Made by a program: the position numbers and the translations under genes. From contig CP085710.1 of the NCBI GenBank assembly GCA_023823795.1, positions 4,366,001-4,430,000 of the forward strand: a stretch of DNA of 64,000 nucleotides, given 5' to 3'. This DNA comes from Bacillus sp. F19. GTDB taxonomy: Bacteria > Bacillota > Bacilli > Bacillales > Bacillaceae. Positions 6,971 through 57,240 of this stretch are shown here, one piece after another. The notes beneath the pieces were generated by a model. The model was not told where the DNA came from and did no database searches. It worked only from the letters and a program-made list of their open reading frames with translations. Positions within the stretch are counted from its first letter, which is position 1, and each line of letters opens with the position of its first letter.

Positions 6971-8337
6971 TTATACCGCTTTCGCTGGCTTCCATGTCCA
7001 GGATGCCAACTTTTTCAAGTTCATGGCAGCAAAAGTAAGCATCGCCTGCATGGACAATTTTTTGAGTCCTCTCAACGTTGTCCAACGCATACCATGCTTT
7101 TCTTTTGCATCTGCAAAGACACGCTCTATCGTTTCTTTGCGTTTTGCATAAATTGTTTTGTTCTCTTCTGTATGACGAAGGTGTTCAGCTTCATCTAAGT
7201 ATTCTTGCCAGAGATGCCTTTCAATCAATTTCTGATGATTTTGGCTCTCCGTACATTGGCTTAGGAATGGGCAATTTTCACAAACCTTCGGATCGGAAGA
7301 GTATTGTCTGTATCCTTTTTTCGTAGTAGTTCTGTAAGGAAGCACTTGATCGTGCGGGCATATGTAACAATCAAAATGTTCGTCATACACATAATCACTT
7401 TTCTTGAAAAATCCATCTTTTGTTTTTGGCCGTGTATAAGGAAAAACCGGACGAATTTCTTTTTCGTTCAAATAGTGAGCAAGAGCAGGGTTCTTGTAAG
7501 CAGCATCGGCAGCAACAGCAACAGGTTTCTTGTGAAGCTCAGTTACTTGATCAAGTAGAGGCTCGAATATTGCACTGTCGTGCACGTTACCAGGCGTAAC
7601 GATTGTCCCCAGAACAAATCCTTTTTCGTCAGAGGCTGTGTGAAATGAGTAAGCGAACTGTTTTGTTCTTTCATCTTTTACGTAATAGCCACTTTCCGGA
7701 TCCGTCGTACTTTCTTTAATCACTTTCTCTTCCGGTTCAAATTTATCTGGGGGAAAAGGCTTTTTTCCGTTTTCTTCGCGGTCTAGATTGAGTTCGTTTT
7801 GGAGCCTTTCCTCATATGATTTCGTTTCTTTTCGTACGATCTTTTTCTGATACTTTCGTTTATTAGCACTAGCCTTTACGTGAGTTGAATCAATAAATAC
7901 CTGTTCTCCATTGACCAGTTTCTTATCAATCGCCTCTTTTAAGATGCGGTAAAATATCTGCTCAAACAGATCTGTATCCTTAAAGCGCCGTTCATAGTTT
8001 TACCGAATGTTGAGAAGTGGGGCACCTTGTCATGAAAACCAAAACCCAAAAACCAACGGTAGGCTAAGTTGGTTTCAATCTCTTCAATGGTTCTTCTCAT
8101 GGATCGAATACCGAAAAGGTATTGGATGAAGGTCATTTTAATCAATATGACCGGATCAATACTTGGACGACCTCGATCTGCGGAATAGACTTTCTCTACT
8201 AATGGATAGATGAAAGAAAAATCGAGAGCTTGTTCAATTTTACGGACTAAGTGATCTTCCGGCACCAACTGTTCAAGTGTAATCATTTCTAGTTGATCGC
8301 GATTCATTTGATTATTTTTAGACAACATCCAAATCAC
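6971..8337 (-). pseudogene. IS1182-type transposase, copy 1, frameshifted
   Basis: The N-terminal part (from 8337) carries LVPEDHLVRKIEQALDFSF and GRPSIDPVILIKM, the DUF772-like region of IS1182-type transposases. The frame breaks at about 8000, where a TTTT run replaces the TTTTT found in copy 2. The downstream part continues correctly to 6971 with the DDE core (GTIVTPGNVHDSAIF, AVAADAAYKN), a Cys cluster (CYICPHDQVL and CENCPFLSQC) and KRKETIERVFADAKEKHGMR, which holds the catalytic Glu. Repairing one base would restore about 455 codons. Confidence 0.85.
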
Positions 8338-8415
8338 CTCTGTATTGTTCTATTTTCATTATATAAAAAAACTGCCGACAAATCCCCCAAAAAGGGGGGA
8401 TTTGTCGACAGTCTG

Positions 8416-8439
8416 AAGCTATGCACATAAGCATAGCTT
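8416..8439. repeat. 24-bp direct repeat, right flank of IS copy 1
   Basis: Identical to 6848-6871. As the nearer copy it probably serves as the terminator of the CorC-type gene ending at 8456. Confidence 0.85.
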
Positions 8440-8455
8440 TCATAATAAACACAGA

Positions 8456-9790
8456 TTATTTTTCTTCTGCAACAAGCTCTTCTTCAGATTCTTCAAGCTT
8501 AAAAATTTCAATTACTCGGATCAGGTGGCCTTCCATTTCTTTTGCAAAAAACTCATAGCCATCTAAAATGATGCTTTCGCCTTGCTGGATGTCAATATTT
8601 TCTGTCAGCATCCATCCGCCGATTGTGTCTACATCCGTATCATCGATATCTAGACCAAGCAGATTATTCACTTCATAGATAAGGACCTTTCCGTCCAGCA
8701 AATAATGGCCTTCGCCTTTTTTCTGAACCTCAGGAACCTCATCCTGGTCAAATTCATCACGGATCTCTCCAACAATTTCCTCGATAATATCTTCAACTGT
8801 TACAAGTCCGGCTGTTCCGCCGTATTCATCCACGAGGATCGCCATATGAACGCGTTCTTTTTGCATCTTTATTAATAAATCATGAATTGGAATCGATTCG
8901 ATGACTTGAATAACAGGGCGGATATACTTATCAATCGTGCTCTTTTTGCGTTCTACTTCGGATAATGAAAAAATGTCAGTGAAGATCTCCTTGAGATTGA
9001 TCATACCAAGGACGTGATCTTTGTCTCCGTTTACAACCGGATAGCGAGTATATTTTTCCATACTCATTGTCTCAAGGTTGTCCTGAAACGATTTCTCTAC
9101 TGAAGCAGCTACAATTTCAGTTCGAGGCACCATAATTTCTTTTGCTACACGATCATCAAATTCGAAAATTTTGTTCATATATTTTAATTCAGATTGGTTG
9201 ATTTCTCCGCTCTCATAACTTTCTGAAAGAATAATCCGAAGCTCTTCCTCAGTATGAGCAAGCTCGTGCTCAGATGCAGGCTTTAGTCCGAAAATACCTG
9301 TTACTACGCGGGCAGAGCCATTTAATACCCAAATGAATGGGAACATTATACGGTAGAACCAGATCAATGGAGCTGCAAATAAAAGTGTCACAGCCTCTGC
9401 TTTTTGGATTGCTACTGTTTTAGGAGCAAGCTCTCCAATGACAACGTGCAAGAACGTAACAGATGCGAATGCAATACCAAAAGTTAAAATATGGTAAACC
9501 GATTCGTTAATTTCAAAGTTATCGAATACCGGTCTGAGAAGACTTTCTACTGTTGGCTCCCCCAACCACCCAAGACCTAAGGCTGTTACCGTTATTCCGA
9601 GCTGACACGCTGATAAATATTCATCTAAATGAGTAGTTACTTTTTTTGCAGCCACTGCCCCTTTTTTACCTTCTGCAATCAATTGATCCAATCGTGAACT
9701 GCGGATTTTGACAATCGCAAATTCTGATGCAACGAAAAAAGCTGTTAAAGCAATTAAAATCGCCACGAATAACAAGTTAACTATGTCCAA
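8456..9790 (-). CDS. HlyC/CorC family (CNNM-CBS) membrane protein
   Basis: About 444 residues in the standard order: an N-terminal CNNM membrane domain ([20 protein letters not shown] at the start, then [12 protein letters not shown] and [15 protein letters not shown]), a pair of CBS domains ([27 protein letters not shown]), and a C-terminal CorC_HlyC domain ([10 protein letters not shown]). Members are linked to divalent cation transport, mainly magnesium efflux or homeostasis, in the plasma membrane. An in-frame GTG at 9826 lies inside an SD-like AGGAGGTG and is an unlikely start. The TTG at 9790, behind AAGGG and beginning [11 protein letters not shown], is preferred. Confidence 0.85.
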
Positions 9791-10627: not shown

Positions 10628-10728
10628 CAATAGTGATTCTTTAGAATTATTTATTAGTAAGTGCGCTCAGCGGAGTTTAAACTATAGATAGGTGCTAGTA
10701 CACATATCTAAAAGACAGCGGTGAAAAA

Positions 10729-11274
10729 ATGAAAGAACAATTAATAGAATGGCTGGAAATCAGCGGACCATTGGCATTTATTATAAGTCTCGCTGCTAAC
10801 ACAATCATTAGTTTATTGGCATTTGTGCCGAGTGTGTTTATTACAGCTGCAAACCTTTCTTTTTTTGGATTTGCAGAAGGGCTTCTCCTCTCTTTTTCTG
10901 GTGAAATCATTGGAGTCCTGGTCAGCTTTTATGTATACCGGAAAGGTTTCTCATTCCTAAAAAAAAAGAAAGCGCCAATAAACGCCATGCTGCAAAACCT
11001 CTCAAAAACGAAAGGCAAAGATGCATTTTTTCTTATTCTTGCATTTAGGATTTTCCCCTTTGTTCCATCAGGTGCTGTTACACTTGCAGCAGCATACAGC
11101 AAAGTGAGCGCAGGTGTTTTTTTCAGTGCAAGCCTGATTGGGAAGATTCCTGCTGTTCTTATTGAGGGGTTTGCCGTGCAGCAAGTCCTGAATGCAGACT
11201 GGCGCATTCAGCTCATGACAGGAATTGGATCTATACTCATTCTGGTTATTCTCTGGGTAAGCAAAAGAAAGTAA
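10729..11274 (+). CDS. TVP38/TMEM64 (VTT domain) membrane protein
   Basis: 181 residues with about five hydrophobic segments. The VTT/DedA-like signatures are visible: LLLSFSGEIIGVLVSFYVYR after the second helix, and FLILAFRIFPFVPSGAVTLA, the conserved F-R-x-x-P-x-x-P region, followed by a GKIPAVLIEG segment. Proteins of this superfamily include lipid scramblases and undecaprenyl- or polyprenyl-phosphate flippases; the substrate here is undefined. The ribosome binding site is weak. The gene stands alone, with its own terminator. Confidence 0.8.
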   Translation: MKEQLIEWLEISGPLAFIISLAANTIISLLAFVPSVFITAANLSFFGFAEGLLLSFSGEIIGVLVSFYVYRKGFSFLKKKKAPINAMLQNLSKTKGKDAFFLILAFRIFPFVPSGAVTLAAAYSKVSAGVFFSASLIGKIPAVLIEGFAVQQVLNADWRIQLMTGIGSILILVILWVSKRK

Positions 11275-11276
11275 AA

Positions 11277-11316
11277 GAAAAAGCTGCGGGAGCACTGTTC
11301 TCCTGCAGCTTTTCCT
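11277..11316 (+). terminator. Terminator after the VTT gene
   Basis: AAGCTGCGGGAG and CTCCTGCAGCTT form a long stem (one mismatch), then TTTCCTTT. Confidence 0.8.
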
Positions 11317-11502
11317 TTGTCACTGCTTTTTTCCAGCAAAGAAATCATTTTTCGTTTTGTTCGATGAGTTCCTTATTTCGCTTTATGTAGACAGGAGCCC
11401 AATTGACACTGCATTCAAAATGGGCAATTGTTCCTTCTTCTTTTTCAAATAAGGGCTCCATATATATGTAAAGGCTTTCATCACATTGTAAAGGAGTCCT
11501 AT

Positions 11503-13008
11503 ATGATCAGAAAACTGATAATATTGCTTACGGCTTTCATGCTTTTTGTTCCAGCAGGCACATTTGCCGGCTCATTTGGTAATCAGGATCCTCCCGGAAA
11601 TCCGGGCCAATGGTATACAGGCGATACTCCGCCCGGCAGCAGTTCATCAAAATCTCCTATCGTCTTCATCCATGGTTTGAACAGCTCATCGAATACGTGG
11701 TGGAATCAAAATGATATGTATAGTACCGCTTATGCAAATGGATATCGTACAGCTTTTATTGATTTATATCCTGCGAAAAACATGTGGGATAACGGCGCCC
11801 TGCTGGCACAGAAATTAAGCGAAATCTATCAGTATTTTGGCGGTCAGAAACTGATGCTTGTCTCTCACAGCAAAGGAGGAATCGATGCTCAATCTGCGCT
11901 TGTGCATTATGGTGCGCATCAATATGTAAGCAACGTGATTACGCTATCGACTCCGCATTCCGGATCGCAGCTTGCAGACCTTACTTACAGCAGCTGGGCT
12001 GGGTGGCTGTCAGGAATATTAGGAAGCAAAAATGATGCTGTTTATTCCCTGCAGACCGGCTACATGAGCAATTTCAGAGAACAAACGGATGCTCATACAA
12101 ATTCCAGAAAGAATCGTATCTATACTTTTGGCGGGACCAAGTGGGGAAGCTTTGGTTCATCTCTTTATTGGGGCGGATTATATTTAAGCTCCTACGGCAG
12201 CAATGATGGAGCTGTAACCGTGCAGTCTTCCAGATTATCTTATGGCACTGAAATCAGAACCGGCAGCTGGGATCATACTTCTATTAAGAAAGGAAGTTCA
12301 ACCTTTCTGTTATTTGAACCGTATTTAAGAAGTACAGCTGCTGCAGAAAGCATCAATATGATAAGTGAAGAAAACAATGCAGTCAGAGCTTCATATTATT
12401 ATCGCGGCGGAGAATTTACCGGCACACAGCAAGAGTCATTCAATGTTGAAGAATCTGTCAGTGAAATCACTGTTGATTGGATGAGCAGCTCGCCTTCAAC
12501 GAAGCTTGCTCTGGATTCCCCTGATGGAAAGACAGATTATCATTCGTTTAAAACAATAAAAGCAGATGGAATTTTTGAAGGAGCCTATCATCATCAAATC
12601 GTCATTCCAAAGCCTAAAAAAGGTAAATGGAGTTTAACTGCATTAAACTCTTCAGGTGAAGCTTATTTCCTGAACGTCGCTTATCTTTCAGCTGACAATG
12701 ATGCCATTTCACTACTGCCAATCAATGAGCAAAATCAGAACATTGCCTTTAAAATAAACCAGGCAAAACTTCAAAAAGAGGTCGAAGCTTTCGTGATAGT
12801 TGATCACTTTCAAACTAAAACAAAGAAGCAGACAAAAACGTTCATAAAATCAATAAAAAAAGCGGGTATCGGGCTAGAGTTAAAGCAGGAAGGAATCTAT
12901 AATATAACGGTTGATATTAGAGGGAAAACTCAGAATGGAGACATATTTGAAAGAACAATTGTTCAAACAGTCTATGTTGATTCATCGGGAAAAATATTCA
13001 GCCAATAA
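11503..13008 (+). CDS. Secreted lipase/esterase with C-terminal extension
   Basis: 501 residues from the ATG behind AAAGGAGTCCTAT. A signal peptide (MIRKLIILLTAFMLFVPAG) is followed by an alpha/beta hydrolase domain: IVFIHGLNSSS with the oxyanion loop, the nucleophile elbow SHSKGG (Ser123 of this start), an acid candidate in SNDGAVTVQSS and a His in GSWDHTSI. It resembles secreted Bacillus lipases/esterases that cleave acyl esters or possibly polyhydroxyalkanoates. The C-terminal 200 residues are beta-rich, resemble a pre-peptidase-like accessory domain, and are of unknown role. An upstream in-frame ATG at 11428 would destroy the signal peptide. The substrate is unknown. Confidence 0.85.
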   Translation: MIRKLIILLTAFMLFVPAGTFAGSFGNQDPPGNPGQWYTGDTPPGSSSSKSPIVFIHGLNSSSNTWWNQNDMYSTAYANGYRTAFIDLYPAKNMWDNGALLAQKLSEIYQYFGGQKLMLVSHSKGGIDAQSALVHYGAHQYVSNVITLSTPHSGSQLADLTYSSWAGWLSGILGSKNDAVYSLQTGYMSNFREQTDAHTNSRKNRIYTFGGTKWGSFGSSLYWGGLYLSSYGSNDGAVTVQSSRLSYGTEIRTGSWDHTSIKKGSSTFLLFEPYLRSTAAAESINMISEENNAVRASYYYRGGEFTGTQQESFNVEESVSEITVDWMSSSPSTKLALDSPDGKTDYHSFKTIKADGIFEGAYHHQIVIPKPKKGKWSLTALNSSGEAYFLNVAYLSADNDAISLLPINEQNQNIAFKINQAKLQKEVEAFVIVDHFQTKTKKQTKTFIKSIKKAGIGLELKQEGIYNITVDIRGKTQNGDIFERTIVQTVYVDSSGKIFSQ

Positions 13009-46921: not shown

Positions 46922-47989
46922 ATGAAGAACTTAGTAATTCTTGGCGGAGGATACGGCGGCATGCGCGTCCTTCATCGACTGCTCCCAGGTCAGCTGCCTG
47001 ATGATGTGCACATTACACTCATAGATAAAAATCCCTATCATTGTTTAAAAACGGAATATTACGCACTGGCTGCGGGAACGATTTCAGACCATCATATACG
47101 CGTAGATTTTCCAGAGCATGAGCGCCTGCACGTAACTTTCGGGGAAATAACCTCGGTTGATCTTGAAGAAAAAAAGGTTCATCTGAATAATCAGGAACCG
47201 ATTTCATATGATGATCTTATTATCGGATTAGGCTGTGAAGATAAATATCATAATGTTCCAGGCGCAAAAGAGTTTACCCACAGCATTCAGACAATCGATC
47301 AATCAAGAGAAACCTACCAGCTCCTTAACAATTTAAGCGGCGGTGCTTCGGTTGCAATCGTTGGCGCAGGACTAAGCGGCGTTGAGCTTGCCAGTGAGCT
47401 CCGAGAAAGCAGAAAAGATCTTAAGATCACTCTTTATGACCGCGGCAAAAACATTCTGTCCAGTTTTCCAGAACGTCTCAGCAAATATGTTCAAGGCTGG
47501 TTTGAAGATCATGGCGTAACCATTATCAACAGTGCCAACGTGACAAAGGTAGAACAAAATGTTCTATATAATCATGATGAGCCTGTTTCATACGATGCCA
47601 TCGTATGGACTGCAGGAATTCAGCCGAACAAAGTCGTAAGAGATCTTCCAGTTGATAAAGATCCTCAGGACCGTGTAGTGCTTACAAAACAGCATCACCT
47701 TCCGCATCATGAGGATGCATTTGTTGTTGGAGACTGTGCTAGTCTTCCTCATGCACCAAGTGCACAGCTTGCTGAAGCTCAGGCTGAACAAATCGTTCAA
47801 GTTCTGCTTAAAAAGTGGAATGGCGAAGAATTGCCGCAGGATTTCCCTGCCTTCAAGCTGAAAGGCGTATTAGGGTCGCTTGGAAAGAAACATGGTTTCG
47901 GCCTTGTGAATGACCGCCCTCTAATTGGACGGGTTCCGCGACTGCTTAAATCCGGAATACTTTGGATGTACAAATACCATAATGGATAA
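46922..47989 (+). CDS. yutJ: NADH dehydrogenase-like flavoprotein YutJ
   Basis: 355 residues. FAD site LVILGGGYGGMRVLHRL, second nucleotide site VAIVGAGLSGVELASELRES, and HHEDAFVVGDCASLPHAPS. A paralogue of yumB and member of the NDH-2/pyridine nucleotide-disulfide oxidoreductase group. Shorter than yumB, and the C-terminal membrane-binding segment ends LLKSGILWMYKYHNG. The electron acceptor is not established. The ribosome binding site is imperfect (GGAGAAAAAGGGG). It marks the left border of the accessory island. Confidence 0.9.
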   Translation: MKNLVILGGGYGGMRVLHRLLPGQLPDDVHITLIDKNPYHCLKTEYYALAAGTISDHHIRVDFPEHERLHVTFGEITSVDLEEKKVHLNNQEPISYDDLIIGLGCEDKYHNVPGAKEFTHSIQTIDQSRETYQLLNNLSGGASVAIVGAGLSGVELASELRESRKDLKITLYDRGKNILSSFPERLSKYVQGWFEDHGVTIINSANVTKVEQNVLYNHDEPVSYDAIVWTAGIQPNKVVRDLPVDKDPQDRVVLTKQHHLPHHEDAFVVGDCASLPHAPSAQLAEAQAEQIVQVLLKKWNGEELPQDFPAFKLKGVLGSLGKKHGFGLVNDRPLIGRVPRLLKSGILWMYKYHNG

Positions 47990-48407: not shown

Positions 48408-49535
48408 ATGAAGGATGTTCAAAAATTTGTTGGTTTAGACGTATCTAAAGATACTATTGCTGTTGCGATTGCTGACCCTGGCCGTGGTGAACCTAGATTT
48501 CATGGAACTATTCAAAATAAACCAGAAGATATTCGCAAACTAATGAAAAAGTTAGGAAATCATGAAAATCTACTTGTTTGTTATGAAGCAGGACCTACTG
48601 GGTATGGAATTTATCGATTACTTCTATCTATGGACATTGAATGTATGGTTGTTGCACCCTCTCTTATCCCAAAGCGTTCGGGCGATCGCGTCAAAACAGA
48701 TAAAAGGGATTCTACTAGATTAGCTCAGCTACTTCGTGCTGGAGAGCTTACTTCTGTATGGGTTCCAGATGAAGATCATGAAGCATTGAGAGATTTAATC
48801 CGTGCTCGTCATGATGCTCGAGAGGATTTACAAAGTTCTCGCCAGAGTCTTGTTCACCTCTTACTTCGCCATGAAATACGTCCTCCGCAAGGAGTTCGAA
48901 ATTGGTCCGTAAAACATCGTGAATGGTTAAAACGATTAACATTTGAAAGAGCTTCTCAGCGTATTGTTTTTCAAGAATATCTCCATGCCATTTATGAAGT
49001 TGAGGAGCGTATGAAACGACTTGAAGCTCAAATACATGAAGAAGCCATTCAAAGTGAACATGCTCCCGTCATTCAAGCGCTCCAAACATTAAGAGGAGTC
49101 GCAGAAGTAACTGCTGTTACATTAGTAGCTGAAATTGGACAATTCTCTCGCTTTTCAAATCCAAGACAACTGATGTCATATGCTGGTCTCGTCCCTAAAG
49201 AATACTCGAGTGGATCTAGTCGTTGGCAAGGTTCAATTACTAAAACCGGAAACTCCCAAATTCGTCGTTCAATAGTAGAAGTTTGTTGGTCTTATCGCCA
49301 TCGGCCATCTCTTAAAGGAGAATTGCTTAAACGTCAAGAAGGTCAAGATCCAGAGGCAAAACGTATTGCTTGGAAGGCTCAACACCGTCTTCATATGAAA
49401 TATCATCGCATCTCTGCTAAAGGAAAAGGCGGAAAAGTAGCTGTTGTTGGTGTTGCCAGAGAATTACTTGGATTTATTTGGGCTATCGGTTGTGCCATTG
49501 AGGATAAGCAAGTAATTGATTTGAATGTTGCTTAA
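48408..49535 (+). CDS. IS110-family recombinase/transposase (element 1)
   Basis: 375 residues. N-terminal RuvC-like DEDD domain: FVGLDVSKDTIAVAIA, LVCYEAGPTGYGIYR, and VKTDKRDSTRLAQLL. A coiled-coil middle leads to the C-terminal Tnp domain TLRGVAEVTAVTLVAEIGQF, with the Ser-rich segment KEYSSGSSRWQGSITKTGN that holds the catalytic Ser. Full length. Ribosome binding site AAAAGGAG. Unlike classical IS elements it uses a guide RNA and leaves no long inverted repeats; element ends could not be fixed. Confidence 0.9.
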   Translation: MKDVQKFVGLDVSKDTIAVAIADPGRGEPRFHGTIQNKPEDIRKLMKKLGNHENLLVCYEAGPTGYGIYRLLLSMDIECMVVAPSLIPKRSGDRVKTDKRDSTRLAQLLRAGELTSVWVPDEDHEALRDLIRARHDAREDLQSSRQSLVHLLLRHEIRPPQGVRNWSVKHREWLKRLTFERASQRIVFQEYLHAIYEVEERMKRLEAQIHEEAIQSEHAPVIQALQTLRGVAEVTAVTLVAEIGQFSRFSNPRQLMSYAGLVPKEYSSGSSRWQGSITKTGNSQIRRSIVEVCWSYRHRPSLKGELLKRQEGQDPEAKRIAWKAQHRLHMKYHRISAKGKGGKVAVVGVARELLGFIWAIGCAIEDKQVIDLNVA

Positions 49536-50195: not shown

Positions 50196-50897
50196 ATGTT
50201 TTTTGTGCCACAGTGGTGGCAATATCCTACAATGAGGCAGGGCATAGGATCGGAGGGACCTCTTGGTCCGATTCACCATGTGGGTGGGCTGTTACCACGG
50301 GACTTTTGGTTTTCCGATTCAAGATTAGTTCTTAACCCTCCCTTTACTGGTGAGACAACAGCAAATGGCTTCACTTTCAGAGGCAGGTTGAGCTATAATA
50401 GTGGCTCGTTACTTAAAACAGGTTTCGGGGTAGTAGCTCGTTACGTACTCAGTCCAGACAGGATTCCACGTCCAGAACGTGGCCCATGGCGTTCCGTCCC
50501 CCGTTTAGATTTATTCGGTTTAATCTCGGGAGGTACAACTGCTCCGGATATCTTCGCTGGAGACAAATGGAGTAAATGTTCGCTAATAAAAAGACAAACT
50601 ATCTTCCAGCACGTCTTCTCTCCGCCGGGAACCGATAATAGGAGAATAATCGGTCACAACGTCGAAAGCGAGCAGCTTATTTTTATAGAGGGTGCTGGTA
50701 AAGATCAACACAAACAACTGTTGCCTGGGTTTAAACCGATGCCACCGGTGGTCATCGACCAAATCTTCCCTGGTATTCCCATTTGGGCAGAACTTGAGGT
50801 CCGCTTCGACATACAGGTAGTAGGGGACAGCACTCTATGGATAGACAACGACATCGTGGTACGCTTGGACCAGTGGCCACTCGAGCCAATAGGTTGA
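50196..50897 (+). CDS. Unrecognised protein of the accessory island
   Basis: 233 residues with a clean start (AAGGGTGTGATGAG before the ATG). Composition is unusual for this genome: rich in Pro, Gly, Trp, Arg and Phe (FFVPQWWQYPTMRQGIG; DRIPRPERGPWRSVPRLDLF), and its DNA is visibly more GC-rich than the surroundings. The C-terminal stretch IWAELEVRFDIQVVGDSTLW is beta-like. No signal peptide, membrane helix or known motif. It converges on the broken gene at 50993-51842. I do not recognise the family; recent acquisition is likely. Confidence 0.65.
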   Translation: MFFVPQWWQYPTMRQGIGSEGPLGPIHHVGGLLPRDFWFSDSRLVLNPPFTGETTANGFTFRGRLSYNSGSLLKTGFGVVARYVLSPDRIPRPERGPWRSVPRLDLFGLISGGTTAPDIFAGDKWSKCSLIKRQTIFQHVFSPPGTDNRRIIGHNVESEQLIFIEGAGKDQHKQLLPGFKPMPPVVIDQIFPGIPIWAELEVRFDIQVVGDSTLWIDNDIVVRLDQWPLEPIG

Positions 50898-50917
50898 TCT
50901 CATTTTTTATTAAATTA

Positions 50918-50945
50918 GCCTTTGTCAATAGGATTTGACAAAGGC
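50918..50945 (+). terminator. Terminator of the 50196-50897 gene
   Basis: GCCTTTGTCAA and TTGACAAAGGC pair around TAGGAT; the T run behind is poor. Confidence 0.65.
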
Positions 50946-50970
50946 AGTATTGTTGCTCTGATAAAAAAAA

Positions 50971-50986
50971 CCACAGAAATCTGTGT
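50971..50986 (-). terminator. Terminator of the 50993-51842 gene
   Basis: CACAGA and TCTGTG pair around a short loop, then eight T on the minus strand. Confidence 0.65.
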
Positions 50987-50992
50987 AACGTC

Positions 50993-51842
50993 TCAGTTAC
51001 AGTTTAGAGGTGTAATATCATTTTCAATAGTCCGCCCATTATTATCTGTGTGTCTAGCTGGGCCGTCTCCTTGTTTGTGGGTCCACAACCAACGAGGCCC
51101 TTCCGAGACAATCCGATAAAAGTGAAAATCATGGCCTGGAAATATGAAGCATGCAATAATCAATACCTTCAATGCGTTCGGCCAGCAACCATGATGAGTC
51201 CAACCATCGGCATATAGACCACCTTGTACTTCACTACAATTGAATTCCCTAGCTGGATAACCTCCGTGTAGGCCAGGATGAGCCCAGCGCCCACCCCCAA
51301 CATGATTGCTAGCGAAGGGATAGCAATTATTGTGAGAAATATTTTGAGGCTGATTGAAAGTAGATGCATTGCTATAAAATAAATTGGAATGGCAAGTCTC
51401 CCATCTTACTGATTGGGGGACTTTACTACTTTCTCTACTAGTGGTCAAATCAACAACTTCACGAGACGTTGGTACTAATACGACACCTTCTTCAATCACT
51501 TCACGTAGTTCGTCCGTTACTTTACTGCATTTCTTTTCTGGTATTTGCAAAAGCCACTCAGCAGCGACCTGCTTCTCTGGTTTGCTCCCAACACGGAACG
51601 CCCAAGGGAGTGGGTTTTCTAATGTCCGATTAGTCCTTTTCCAAATGCCATCATCCGACTTAATCTCCCGGACAATCAATCCACGATAGCCAAGGCCAAA
51701 CTTCTCCTCAGGGGTATGTACTGGTGAAATTTGTGTCGGATCGGAAGTTATAATTTCGAGCAATTCCTTCTCTTCTGTCTAGGACAAAATCCATTTAGGA
51801 TTAGACACCCCGGAGAAAGATATCCAGCTCTACTTCTAGCAT
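50993..51842 (-). pseudogene. Unrecognised protein gene broken by a frameshift and a stop
   Basis: The true start is the ATG at 51842, eight bases behind GGAGGT. It encodes MLEVELDIF and then goes out of frame; removing one T at about 51817 gives LDIFSGVSNPKWILS, then TAG at about 51780, then EEKELLEIITSDPTQISPVH to the natural stop (TTG at 51763 is the only later start). The C-terminal half has Cys/His-rich HNNCYPFASNHVGGG, EFNCSEVQGGLYADGW and HHGCWPNALK, and then FPGHDFHFYRIVSEGPRWLW and HKQGDGPARHTDNNG. I faintly recall proteins with such an HFYR...W.HK.G ending in bacilli and cyanobacteria, but can assign no function. Confidence 0.6.
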
Positions 51843-52418: not shown

Positions 52419-52649
52419 TTAGTCTTTTCGGTCGTCTCTTCTTCTTAGACCTAATAACCCAGCCAGACCAATTAACCCGATCCATCCCCAATCCATATCA
52501 TCATCGTCATCATTTGTTGCTGCAACATTTCTTGTCATGTTTGTATCATTATAATTGTCATTATTATTTGCTGAAGCATTATTCCCACCGAATAAAAGTC
52601 CTAATGAAAGAACAAGGGCTGTAATAATTACTAATTGTTTTCTAATCAT
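52419..52649 (-). CDS. Small secreted WGxxGxxG-anchored protein
   Basis: 76 residues. Signal peptide (QLVIITALVLSLGLLFGG, ending NNASA), an Asn/Asp-rich linker (NNNDNYNDTNMTRN, DDDDD), then DWGWIGLIGLAGLLGLRRRD. The C-terminal WGxxGxxG helix followed by Arg residues is a known sorting/anchoring signal of small Bacillus surface proteins, processed at the membrane. The passenger is only about 30 residues. Ribosome binding site AAAGGAG. Function unknown. Confidence 0.85.
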   Translation of the reverse strand: MIRKQLVIITALVLSLGLLFGGNNASANNNDNYNDTNMTRNVAATNDDDDDMDWGWIGLIGLAGLLGLRRRDDRKD

Positions 52650-52827
52650 TGTAATTCTCCTTTTAATTTTTTTTCATACTCAAGGTTATTATCCCTTTTG
52701 TACATTTTTTTATACTTATTGAATTTGAGAACAATTACTATCGTAAGTCGAAACAACCTTTGAATAAATTCAAATATAATATCTAATAATATTCCCTGTG
52801 TTCACTTTCCTTTTAAAGGAGAAAATC

Positions 52828-53367
52828 ATGAATTTTCAAAAGACGATAAGGAGTGTAGTTATGGGAATTTTAAGTGGTAACCCAAAAGATGAACCAATGC
52901 ATTACGGAGAGATTTTTGGTACATGGACTAACCTTTTAACAAATAACGGCTTAATTTCAGGCTATCAGGCTTTTATTAATCACACTGGTGATCAGGATCT
53001 AAAAAAGCTAATTGAAGAAGCAATTGAAGGTTTAAAAAATGAAAATAAACAAATAGAAGAACTTCTTAAAGCGAATGGGATTGGTTTACCCCCTGCACCA
53101 CCAGAACGCCCTATTGCTAAATTAGAAGATATCCCTGTTGGAGCAAGATTTAGTGATCCAGAAATTAGTGCTTCTGTCTCTAGGGATGTAGCTGCTGGTC
53201 TAGTTGCTTGCAGTCAAGTAATAGGTCAATCAATAAGAGAAGATATAGGAGTGATGTATGGTTTATTTCATTTAGCAAAAGCTCAATTTGGTGCTAAAAT
53301 GTTAAAACTTAATAAAGAAAAGGGTTGGCTGATTCCGCCTCCATTACAAGTTAAAGCTAGTGAATGA
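52828..53367 (+). CDS. DUF3231 family protein
   Basis: About 179 residues. SGNPKDEPMHYGEIFGTWTN is the family start, followed by ferritin-like helical segments (GYQAFINHTGDQDLKKLIEE; EQNKQIEELLKANGIGLPPA-like) and DVAAGLVACSQVIGQSIRED. DUF3231 proteins are four-helix, ferritin-like and occur in one or more copies in Bacillaceae; some are associated with spores. Here a single copy of about half the double-domain length. Two possible starts: 52828 behind AAAGGAG and 52861 (MGILSGNP) behind AAGGAGTG. Confidence 0.8.
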   Translation: MNFQKTIRSVVMGILSGNPKDEPMHYGEIFGTWTNLLTNNGLISGYQAFINHTGDQDLKKLIEEAIEGLKNENKQIEELLKANGIGLPPAPPERPIAKLEDIPVGARFSDPEISASVSRDVAAGLVACSQVIGQSIREDIGVMYGLFHLAKAQFGAKMLKLNKEKGWLIPPPLQVKASE

Positions 53368-54396: not shown

Positions 54397-55671
54397 CTAT
54401 GCTGCTAAAGGGGATAATACTTGGACTTTATTTGGACAGTAAGACTCGTTTCGTCGTGCTATTCCTACAAAAATCCTTGCTAGTTTACCTATCAGTTTCA
54501 TTATTGACTTCATTTTTTTTATCTTTTTTACCTTCACATTATGGGAATGGACTGCTTTAAACTCAGGGTTATTCATCACAAGGCTCATAGTTGCTAAGTA
54601 GAGGAAGCGTCGTAGTCTTGACCTTCCACGCTTTGAAATAACAATCTGACCTTTCCATTTGCCTGAACTTGCCTCTGCTAGATGTAATCCCGCATGACGT
54701 AATAGAGAGTTTCCGTGAGAGAATCCACTTAGATCTCCTGACTCACCTAGTATCCCAGCTAATGAAATTTCACTTATTCCTTTAATCATAAGTAGTTTTT
54801 TTGCAAATGGTATTTTGTTGAGAACTTCATTAACTTGTTGTTCAACTCTTTCGAGTTGTTTTACAGCGAGGTCATATTCTTCTAATAATTGTTCTAGATG
54901 GAATTTATAAGCATCAAGTGCTTGTCCAGTTCCAATAGAAGATTTTGCTAGATTGATCAGTAATTGAGCTTTTTTAGGTCCTGGTTGTCTTTTCATTAAT
55001 GACTTCCATCCCCTCATGACATCTAGTTGCTCCATTGAAGATATTTCATATGGAGTTGGAAACAAACGAAGGGTTGCGATGGCACCTTTACACGAAACAT
55101 CTTTAAACACTTGTCTCAGCTCTGGAAAGACAACATCTACCCATCGATTTATTTGATTAATAGACATTACGAGACGTTTTACAATCACATCACGATTAGA
55201 CATTAACACTCTAAGCTTCTCAAATGATTCTGATGATGGGCGAATAAAGGAGTAATAGCCGTTTTTGACCATATCCGCGATAACGAGAGCATCTTTTTTA
55301 TCACTCTTAGATTGAGTTTTATCACGATTTTCTTTATTCCTTTTTACTAAGTGGGGATTGACTGTTACTACCTCAATATTTTGGTTATATAACCATTTTG
55401 ATAGGTTAATCCAGTAATGCCCTGTAGGCTCCACACCTACTATTTCTGCATCTAAGTTTTTTATTCTTTTTAAATCTTTAATCCAGTTTAATAGTTTAAC
55501 GAACCCCTCTTCATTATTTTCAAATGTAATAGGGTCTCCAATTACAATTCCACGGAAGTTAACTGCTCTGGCAACGTGTAGTTGTTGAGCGATATCCACA
55601 CCAACAATAAGATGTGTATCGGAAATTCTTTCTATTAGTTGATTTTGTTTGTCTTGCATTTTAAAATTCAT
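54397..55671 (-). CDS. IS110-family recombinase/transposase (element 2)
   Basis: 424 residues. DEDD domain: HLIVGVDIAQQLHVARAVN, AEIVGVEPTGHYWINLSKWL, and KTQSKSDKKDALVIADMV. C-terminal Tnp domain: MIKGISEISLAGILGESGDL and HAGLHLAEASSGKWKGQIVI with the catalytic Ser, then RGRSRLRRFLYLATMSLV. Clearly a different subgroup from element 1 (little identity outside motifs). Full length. The start at 55671 lies close behind GGAGGAAGC. Confidence 0.9.
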   Translation of the reverse strand: MNFKMQDKQNQLIERISDTHLIVGVDIAQQLHVARAVNFRGIVIGDPITFENNEEGFVKLLNWIKDLKRIKNLDAEIVGVEPTGHYWINLSKWLYNQNIEVVTVNPHLVKRNKENRDKTQSKSDKKDALVIADMVKNGYYSFIRPSSESFEKLRVLMSNRDVIVKRLVMSINQINRWVDVVFPELRQVFKDVSCKGAIATLRLFPTPYEISSMEQLDVMRGWKSLMKRQPGPKKAQLLINLAKSSIGTGQALDAYKFHLEQLLEEYDLAVKQLERVEQQVNEVLNKIPFAKKLLMIKGISEISLAGILGESGDLSGFSHGNSLLRHAGLHLAEASSGKWKGQIVISKRGRSRLRRFLYLATMSLVMNNPEFKAVHSHNVKVKKIKKMKSIMKLIGKLARIFVGIARRNESYCPNKVQVLSPLAA

Positions 55672-56169: not shown

Positions 56170-57240
56170 ATGAAATGCTGTCAAAATTGCTTTGAAGATA
56201 TATATCTAATACTCAAAATTAAAGAATATGATGAGATTGGCAATTGTGATTACTGCCATACTGAGGAAGTTTATATCATTGATGTTGATGAATTAACGGA
56301 AGAATTCGATAGGCTTTTTAAACATTATGAAAGCACAGAACCTTATGAATATTACCATCCCGAAATTCATGATGACCCATCGGACTTTGGCGATCGTCTT
56401 ATAGAGCTAATAAACGAAGATTGGAATGTTTTTTCGGAAGGGATTGTAGGAACGGGAACCGATGAAACTTTACTGTTTGACATCTTGAATGCTTATAAAA
56501 AATGGGATCCAGAGGAATATATTGATCCACATAATTTATATTCAAGAATTACGCAAGCATTTACCTTTGTCCATCCCTTAGAAGATTGGGAAGATATTTG
56601 GGATTCATTTAAGGAAGAAATAAAACACGGTAACAGATTTTTTCCTGAAGCCACAAATGATGTTTTTAATAAAAGTTTTGATGATATTTTAGAACTAAGG
56701 ACAGTATATACCGAAAATATAGATTTATTTAGGGCTAGATTAGGCGTACACCCAATCAGTAAAATGATGGCTCCTCCAGCTGAAATAGCCACAGCAGGAA
56801 GAGCTAATCCTCGTGGAATAAGTTATTTGTATTGTGCAGTAGATGAGCCAACATGTATAGCTGAAATCAGGCCATGGAAAGGGGCAAAAGTAACTGTTGC
56901 TCACATCAAACCAAAGAAAAAGTTAAAATTGGCAGCCTTATTTAGACAGCCAATATCTCCATTTGATTTCGAATCGCCATATGACATTTTAGAAATAGAA
57001 AAAATATTATCATCTTTCATTCAAGAGTTAAGTACTCCTGTAGATCCTGATAAATCAGAAATAGAGTATTTATCCACCCAGTACATAACAGAATTGATTA
57101 AATCTAAAGGATTTGATGGGATTTTATTCGATAGTGCAATGGGACCAGGTTATAATGTTGTTCTTTTTGATCAAAACAATGCAGATATTAATAAGATTCA
57201 TACAATAGAGGTGAATGACATTATTTATGAATATTCTTAA
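56170..57240 (+). CDS. RES-domain protein with Zn-ribbon/HEPN-like N-terminus
   Basis: 356 residues. The N-terminus has CxxC pairs (C4/C7 and C26/C29), a likely zinc ribbon, then an acidic helical region (to about 170) like the HEPN-associated N-terminal domains found on some RES proteins. The RES domain follows: LFRARLG near 187, AGRANPRGISYLYCAVDEPT near 210, CIAEIRPWKGA with Glu232, and GYNVVLFDQNN near the end; the namesake Arg and Glu and a Ser (LFDSAMGPG) are present. RES toxins degrade NAD+ in cells; most are paired with an Xre antitoxin, but none is adjacent here. Ribosome binding site weak (AGTGGTGAT). Confidence 0.85.
   Translation: MKCCQNCFEDIYLILKIKEYDEIGNCDYCHTEEVYIIDVDELTEEFDRLFKHYESTEPYEYYHPEIHDDPSDFGDRLIELINEDWNVFSEGIVGTGTDETLLFDILNAYKKWDPEEYIDPHNLYSRITQAFTFVHPLEDWEDIWDSFKEEIKHGNRFFPEATNDVFNKSFDDILELRTVYTENIDLFRARLGVHPISKMMAPPAEIATAGRANPRGISYLYCAVDEPTCIAEIRPWKGAKVTVAHIKPKKKLKLAALFRQPISPFDFESPYDILEIEKILSSFIQELSTPVDPDKSEIEYLSTQYITELIKSKGFDGILFDSAMGPGYNVVLFDQNNADINKIHTIEVNDIIYEYS

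Follow-up and report, generated by a model that had tools for sequence, protein, structure and literature searches.

A 64,000-nucleotide (nt) stretch of the Bacillus sp. F19 genome (positions 4366001 to 4430000 of contig 1; genome 5.59 Mb, two contigs), hereafter called the window, carries two convergent genes (Table 1). As a preliminary description of the same DNA had it, an intact open reading frame (ORF), the left gene, faces a broken gene, the right gene. We find that the right protein comprises an N-terminal “FSGRPNP” domain (N-domain) and a C-terminal domain (C-domain). The preliminary description could not place either protein, and indeed neither matches Pfam, NCBIfam, PADLOC or PHROGs at an E value of 1, nor are there matches in PDB sequences for the main open stretch of the right protein (E 1) or for the left protein, profile searches with each included. 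PADLOC and PHROGs were scanned with the window proteins, and Pfam and NCBIfam also with 50 relatives of the right protein. Sequence comparisons indicate that the right gene is a member of a large, widespread and so far unnamed family, and that the conserved two-gene unit of this family is a C-domain gene with a free-standing N-domain gene, rather than the left and right genes together.

The right gene is a decayed pseudogene with at least three lesions, all revealed by comparison with an intact copy in Bacillus aerolatus (locus L049; 306 amino acids from its ATG, 90% amino acid identity). The N-terminal frame break and the in-frame TAG had been recognized earlier. However, a third lesion affects the C-terminal end: the main ORF ends at 50993, and the final ~23 family residues are encoded in a different frame that closes with the original stop codon at 50925 to 50927. 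Because of this lesion, the gene cannot be called freshly broken, as had been claimed. A hidden Markov model (HMM) of the N-domain matches residues 1 to 66 of the main open stretch, and the right gene was found once in its own genome. Present-day activity of the window copy is very unlikely, and we regard this copy as dead.

The preliminary description also gave each gene its own terminator, which is not what we find. The main hairpin is intergenic and lies over the stop codon of the right gene, and a second site falls within the coding region of the intact relative. Four terminator-like sites were found, compared with 2.1 expected in shuffles. An Rfam scan gave no match at the gathering threshold, and no tandem repeats were found.

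Table 1. Features of the convergent gene pair (window coordinates)
Feature	Position	Strand	Remarks
Left gene	50196-50897	+	Intact ORF, 233 codons
Right gene (pseudogene, full extent)	50925-51842	-	Start at 51842; convergent to left gene
Broken N terminus of right gene	51779-51842	-	Start codon 51842, frame break, then in-frame TAG 51779-51781
Main open stretch of right gene	50993-51778	-	Rest of N-domain, linker, predicted papain-like C-domain; N-domain HMM and C-domain profile matches
C-domain core	51000-51349 (approximate limits)	-	NNCY, DFHFYR and WTHK motifs
C-terminal remnant of right gene	50925-50995	-	Frame differs from main ORF; compared with intact L049 copy
Hairpin between convergent genes	50918-50945		11-bp stem; overlaps original stop codon of right gene
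Second terminator-like site	50985-50972	-	Coding sequence in intact B. aerolatus relative
Block collinear with B. aerolatus L049 9439-7805	50408-52013		blastn, 87% nt identity over 1651 columns

The earlier suggestion of joint transfer is supported by the single collinear block shared with B. aerolatus, which takes in both genes along with some 170 bp of DNA upstream of the right gene. The one housekeeping gene compared, glmS, has 80% amino acid identity and is saturated at synonymous sites, which indicates that the block was transferred horizontally between the two lineages or from a common source. The convergent order is the same in both species, with the states reversed: in B. aerolatus the left gene is truncated and the right gene is intact. 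Because of this reversal, the two genes seem to have moved together, yet neither appears to need the other. Their histories evidently differ in detail as well, since the synonymous divergence (dS) between the two species is 0.11 for the right gene and 0.36 for the left gene, about a threefold difference within one collinear block. Recombination or uneven rates are possible causes. A third related copy, in genome G434 (L015), is also broken and is without the segment bearing the putative catalytic Cys; the left gene is absent from the 16 kb examined around it. Both genes of the pair (GC content 48.5% for left and 43.8% for right) exceed the stretches next to them (36.4% and 30.5%) and the window (39.5%), as had been stated. 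However, the gene at 46922 to 47989 (44.5%) is as GC-rich as the right gene, so that only the left gene stands out from its surroundings.

Searches with tblastn from the right protein reached relatives on a Rhizobium plasmid and a Streptomyces plasmid, and the Rhizobium relative, used as a query in turn, led to one Vibrio plasmid and one phage record. A profile scan yielded 70 loci in named genomes and metagenome-assembled genomes (MAGs) and four in viral contigs. By their titles, these 74 loci represent Bacillota, Actinomycetota, Pseudomonadota, Bacteroidota, Acidobacteriota, Cyanobacteria, Myxococcota, archaea and others. The scan requires D[YF]H[WF]YR, and conservation of this motif is therefore by construction; invariant residues outside the pattern are N-C-Y, P-G, D213 and W254. 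Among 75 C-domain ORFs of sufficient length (two of 77 are too short, and one of the 77 is a duplicate, L013 and L061 being the same gene), NC[YWF] is present in 73 and W-x-HK in 66, and one of the two that miss NC[YWF] (L043) is truncated. The family was not found in the literature searched, where motifs are not searchable and many subscription papers fall outside the coverage.

Some individual loci have features of their own. Large hypothetical proteins with no Pfam domain above the cut-off are encoded near right-family genes at L004 6462-8342 (about 9.3 kb on the Rhizobium plasmid, only the first 627 amino acids scanned) and at L005 1-2208 (about 2.9 kb on the Streptomyces plasmid, 736 amino acids scanned). 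Two C-domain proteins on uncultivated viral contigs (L090 and L091) are closely alike.

The N-domain HMM, built from full-length members, was searched against every ORF of at least 40 amino acids in the collected loci and the window, with seven redundant or off-family loci left out. Its matches, other than copies that are fused or broken, are all free-standing proteins, each encoded on the same strand as a C-domain gene and immediately downstream of it. Three of the 74 loci (L063, L082 and L086) have no C-domain ORF of at least 80 amino acids with the motif and were dropped, leaving 71 loci with 72 C-domain ORFs. A free N-domain lies downstream of 23 of these, a fused one is present in 17, either in 32 and both in 8. 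The free gene starts -27 to 170 nt from the last codon of the enzyme. This arrangement is seen in bacteria and in two archaeal MAGs (one Hodarchaeota, one Thermoplasmatales), provided that the binning is right. The window contains no free-standing N-domain gene, and in the genomes of the window strain, B. aerolatus and G434 the only copy found is fused or broken. Metabacillus iocasae, whose intact enzyme (L048 7992-8894) has 64% amino acid identity to the window protein over 253 codons, has both forms, with the free N-domain gene downstream at L048 8953-9369.

The partner has no convincing named counterpart in the collections searched. With 22 free-standing N-domain proteins, Pfam at E 0.1 returned three unrelated weak matches, which were set aside, and no immunity family, Imm35 included; a partner profile search of PDB sequences gave only E 0.56 and worse. 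Twenty-two of the 23 partners are in the alignment. Distances among enzymes and among partners correlate in 19 pairs (Mantel test, without the near-duplicates L037, L039 and L040 and the truncated L043), a result also expected if enzyme and partner descend together as a linked pair. The fused N-domain of each of the eight members with both forms is nearer to its own free partner (24 to 36%) than to the median other partner (21 to 27%), but only by a small margin. There are 15 pairs with a C-domain-only enzyme, 13 of them with both N termini. Judged by eye (for the partner in L040, only as a score), both proteins look exported in seven pairs (four of them close kin), neither in five and the partner only in one. 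A strict leader script (both 2.0 or more) agrees for four of the seven. We place no weight on a Fisher test of the by-eye counts (p 0.005), which takes no account of kinship.

Ten relatives chosen for their delivery-protein look were scanned whole against Pfam. In six, the C-domain is preceded by a known delivery module: RHS in L058, L067, L069 and L080 (the last also with a WXG100 match below the cut-off), SpvB/TcdB in L087 and an eCIS core in L083. The remaining four gave no Pfam match at E 0.01. Thus, the C-domain is at the effector end of delivery proteins in those six relatives, not in the window protein. No N-domain gene adjoins any of the six, and therefore the proposed inhibitor is tied to free-standing enzymes. 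In a second chosen set of ten, the companions are SH3b (L071), B-lectin (L036), a ricin-type lectin (L062) and TIG (L029), with Ig-like (L055) and carbohydrate-binding module (L073) matches below the cut-off; four relatives have none. One possibility is that the family consists of ordinary secreted cell-wall or protein hydrolases, in which the N-domain serves as a propeptide, folding helper or localization domain. The SH3b fusion is consistent with this, as are Paenibacillus-type members, which are plain secreted-looking proteins without an N-domain or partner. However, the effector-end position in RHS, TcdB and eCIS-core proteins is typical of toxin domains, and across phyla the partner has a gene of its own. 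We consider it unlikely that these are ordinary hydrolases.

In the Lentisphaerae locus L066, two C-domain ORFs (7578-8540 and 10728-11717), about 2 kb apart, follow sequence that is RHS-like by eye, although the first has no Pfam match. Methanoperedens, an archaeon, carries C-domain proteins at L083 and L085, and the eCIS core of L083 suggests an archaeal injected cargo.

The preliminary description had read a catalytic or metal site from Cys, His and Trp motifs. These are present as quoted, and the site looks catalytic: among 50 aligned relatives the Cys is found in 50 and the His, which is part of the scan pattern, also in 50, while the third position on the next strand is H in 45, N in 2, D in 2 and G in 1. 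Predicted elements place the Cys at the N terminus of a helix (174-178), the His on a strand (239-247) and the third residue on the following strand (252-257). This order fits the papain-like cysteine peptidase superfamily, and such an activity is predicted. Tse1/Tae1 and the NlpC/P60-CHAP amidases likewise have the Cys at a helix start and the His, then His/Asn/Asp, on following strands, and the top Foldseek match falls in this group; Tse1 also has a cognate immunity protein (per the PDB title of 4fgi). Alternatively, the C-domain could be another Cys/His enzyme or a metal-binding fold. The structural model is only weakly papain/NlpC-like, with a low structural Z, and no HMM links the C-domain above cut-off to a named papain family (no Pfam match to NlpC/P60, CHAP or Tox-PL among 50 members scanned at E 0.1). 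However, given the order of the three residues and the fact that most of the best structural matches are papain-like, a different fold is quite improbable.

Among named families, DUF7689 (PF24738) is one of the closest. Two of the 50 members match the greater part of the domain (E 0.0039 and 0.0096), but at 18.3 bits at best, under the 22.6-bit cut-off; no paper naming it was found in the literature searched. Other weak matches among the 50 relatives were set aside: Imm53 in four (best E 0.035, below the cut-off where shown), DUF2729, DUF155 and Ribosomal_L37e in one each, and one NCBIfam match to HpnM (E 0.028).

The left protein is predicted, with low confidence, to be all-beta (AlphaFold pLDDT 54), and is perhaps a beta-sandwich sugar-binding protein. 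Its sole relative found is the truncated B. aerolatus gene (L049 8962-9438; 69% amino acid identity over 157 codons). The preliminary description put forward the left and right genes as a candidate two-gene system, to be supported by frequent co-occurrence and an intact version elsewhere. The intact right gene exists in B. aerolatus, but the left gene is present in only one of 26 whole genomes carrying the right family (part of those behind the 70 loci) and is matched in one of 87 other loci (below E 1e-5; a few of the 87 are not right-family loci), and the partner that recurs is the free-standing N-domain protein (23/72). That the two genes form a toxin-immunity or enzyme-partner pair is highly improbable: both genomes with the left gene have it convergent beside the right gene, but convergent orientation is unusual for immunity genes, and each gene persists intact beside a dead or truncated neighbor. 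The left gene is, by these comparisons, an orphan and a rare co-transferred passenger.

We favor, as reasonably probable, the explanation that the right gene is a horizontally acquired, dead copy of a papain-like effector family (NlpC/P60-type Cys-His-His/Asn/Asp), a peptidase or peptidoglycan amidase checked by an N-domain inhibitor, with the left gene as a passenger not needed for its function. The sequence family, the invariant Cys and His, the third residue, the architectures (including the effector-end position in some relatives), the downstream partner linkage, the decay and the transfer are shown directly by the sequences. The enzyme would cut a peptide or amide bond in its target (peptidoglycan stem or protein), with the Cys as nucleophile and the His as base. 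The N-domain, whether fused, directly downstream or both, would act as a cognate inhibitor or immunity module and so protect producers, and in some members the free copy may be exported. Tox-PL1 with Imm35 offers a precedent: in these polymorphic toxins (PMC3482391), a papain-like toxin domain is associated, sometimes by fusion, with a possible peptidase-inhibitor immunity protein. In contrast, neither domain of the right family matches such a Pfam family at E 0.1, and the motifs here (DxH-YR and W-x-HK) are different.

A broader reading is plausible, though somewhat less likely than not: an unnamed papain-like effector family and a new inhibitor domain may constitute a mobile two-gene unit common to bacteria and, given correct binning of the two MAGs, archaea. 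In this reading the inhibitor is often double, a fused safety plus a free copy, and some members have a leader on the free copy but none on the fused enzyme. If so, the leader-bearing copy would protect a second compartment, and the fused-plus-free arrangement would allow the guarding of two compartments by one producer to be tested directly. Neither Pfam nor NCBIfam named this widespread Cys-His effector-like family or its conserved partner in the 50 relatives scanned, so that a testable activity could be assigned to the “hypothetical” tips of some Rhs, Tc-like and eCIS proteins.

The region lies between genes for two different IS110-family transposases (48408-49535, plus strand; 54397-55671, minus strand), and an element carried by a Peribacillus simplex plasmid shares 93% identity with the stretch that contains the second. 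Beside the pair are genes for a WGxxGxxG family protein (52419-52649, minus strand) and a DUF3231 protein (52798-53367, plus strand). Farther on, a RES-domain protein with a sub-threshold match to a HEPN/RES N-terminal domain (56170-57240, plus strand) is a candidate toxin-antitoxin or defence gene.
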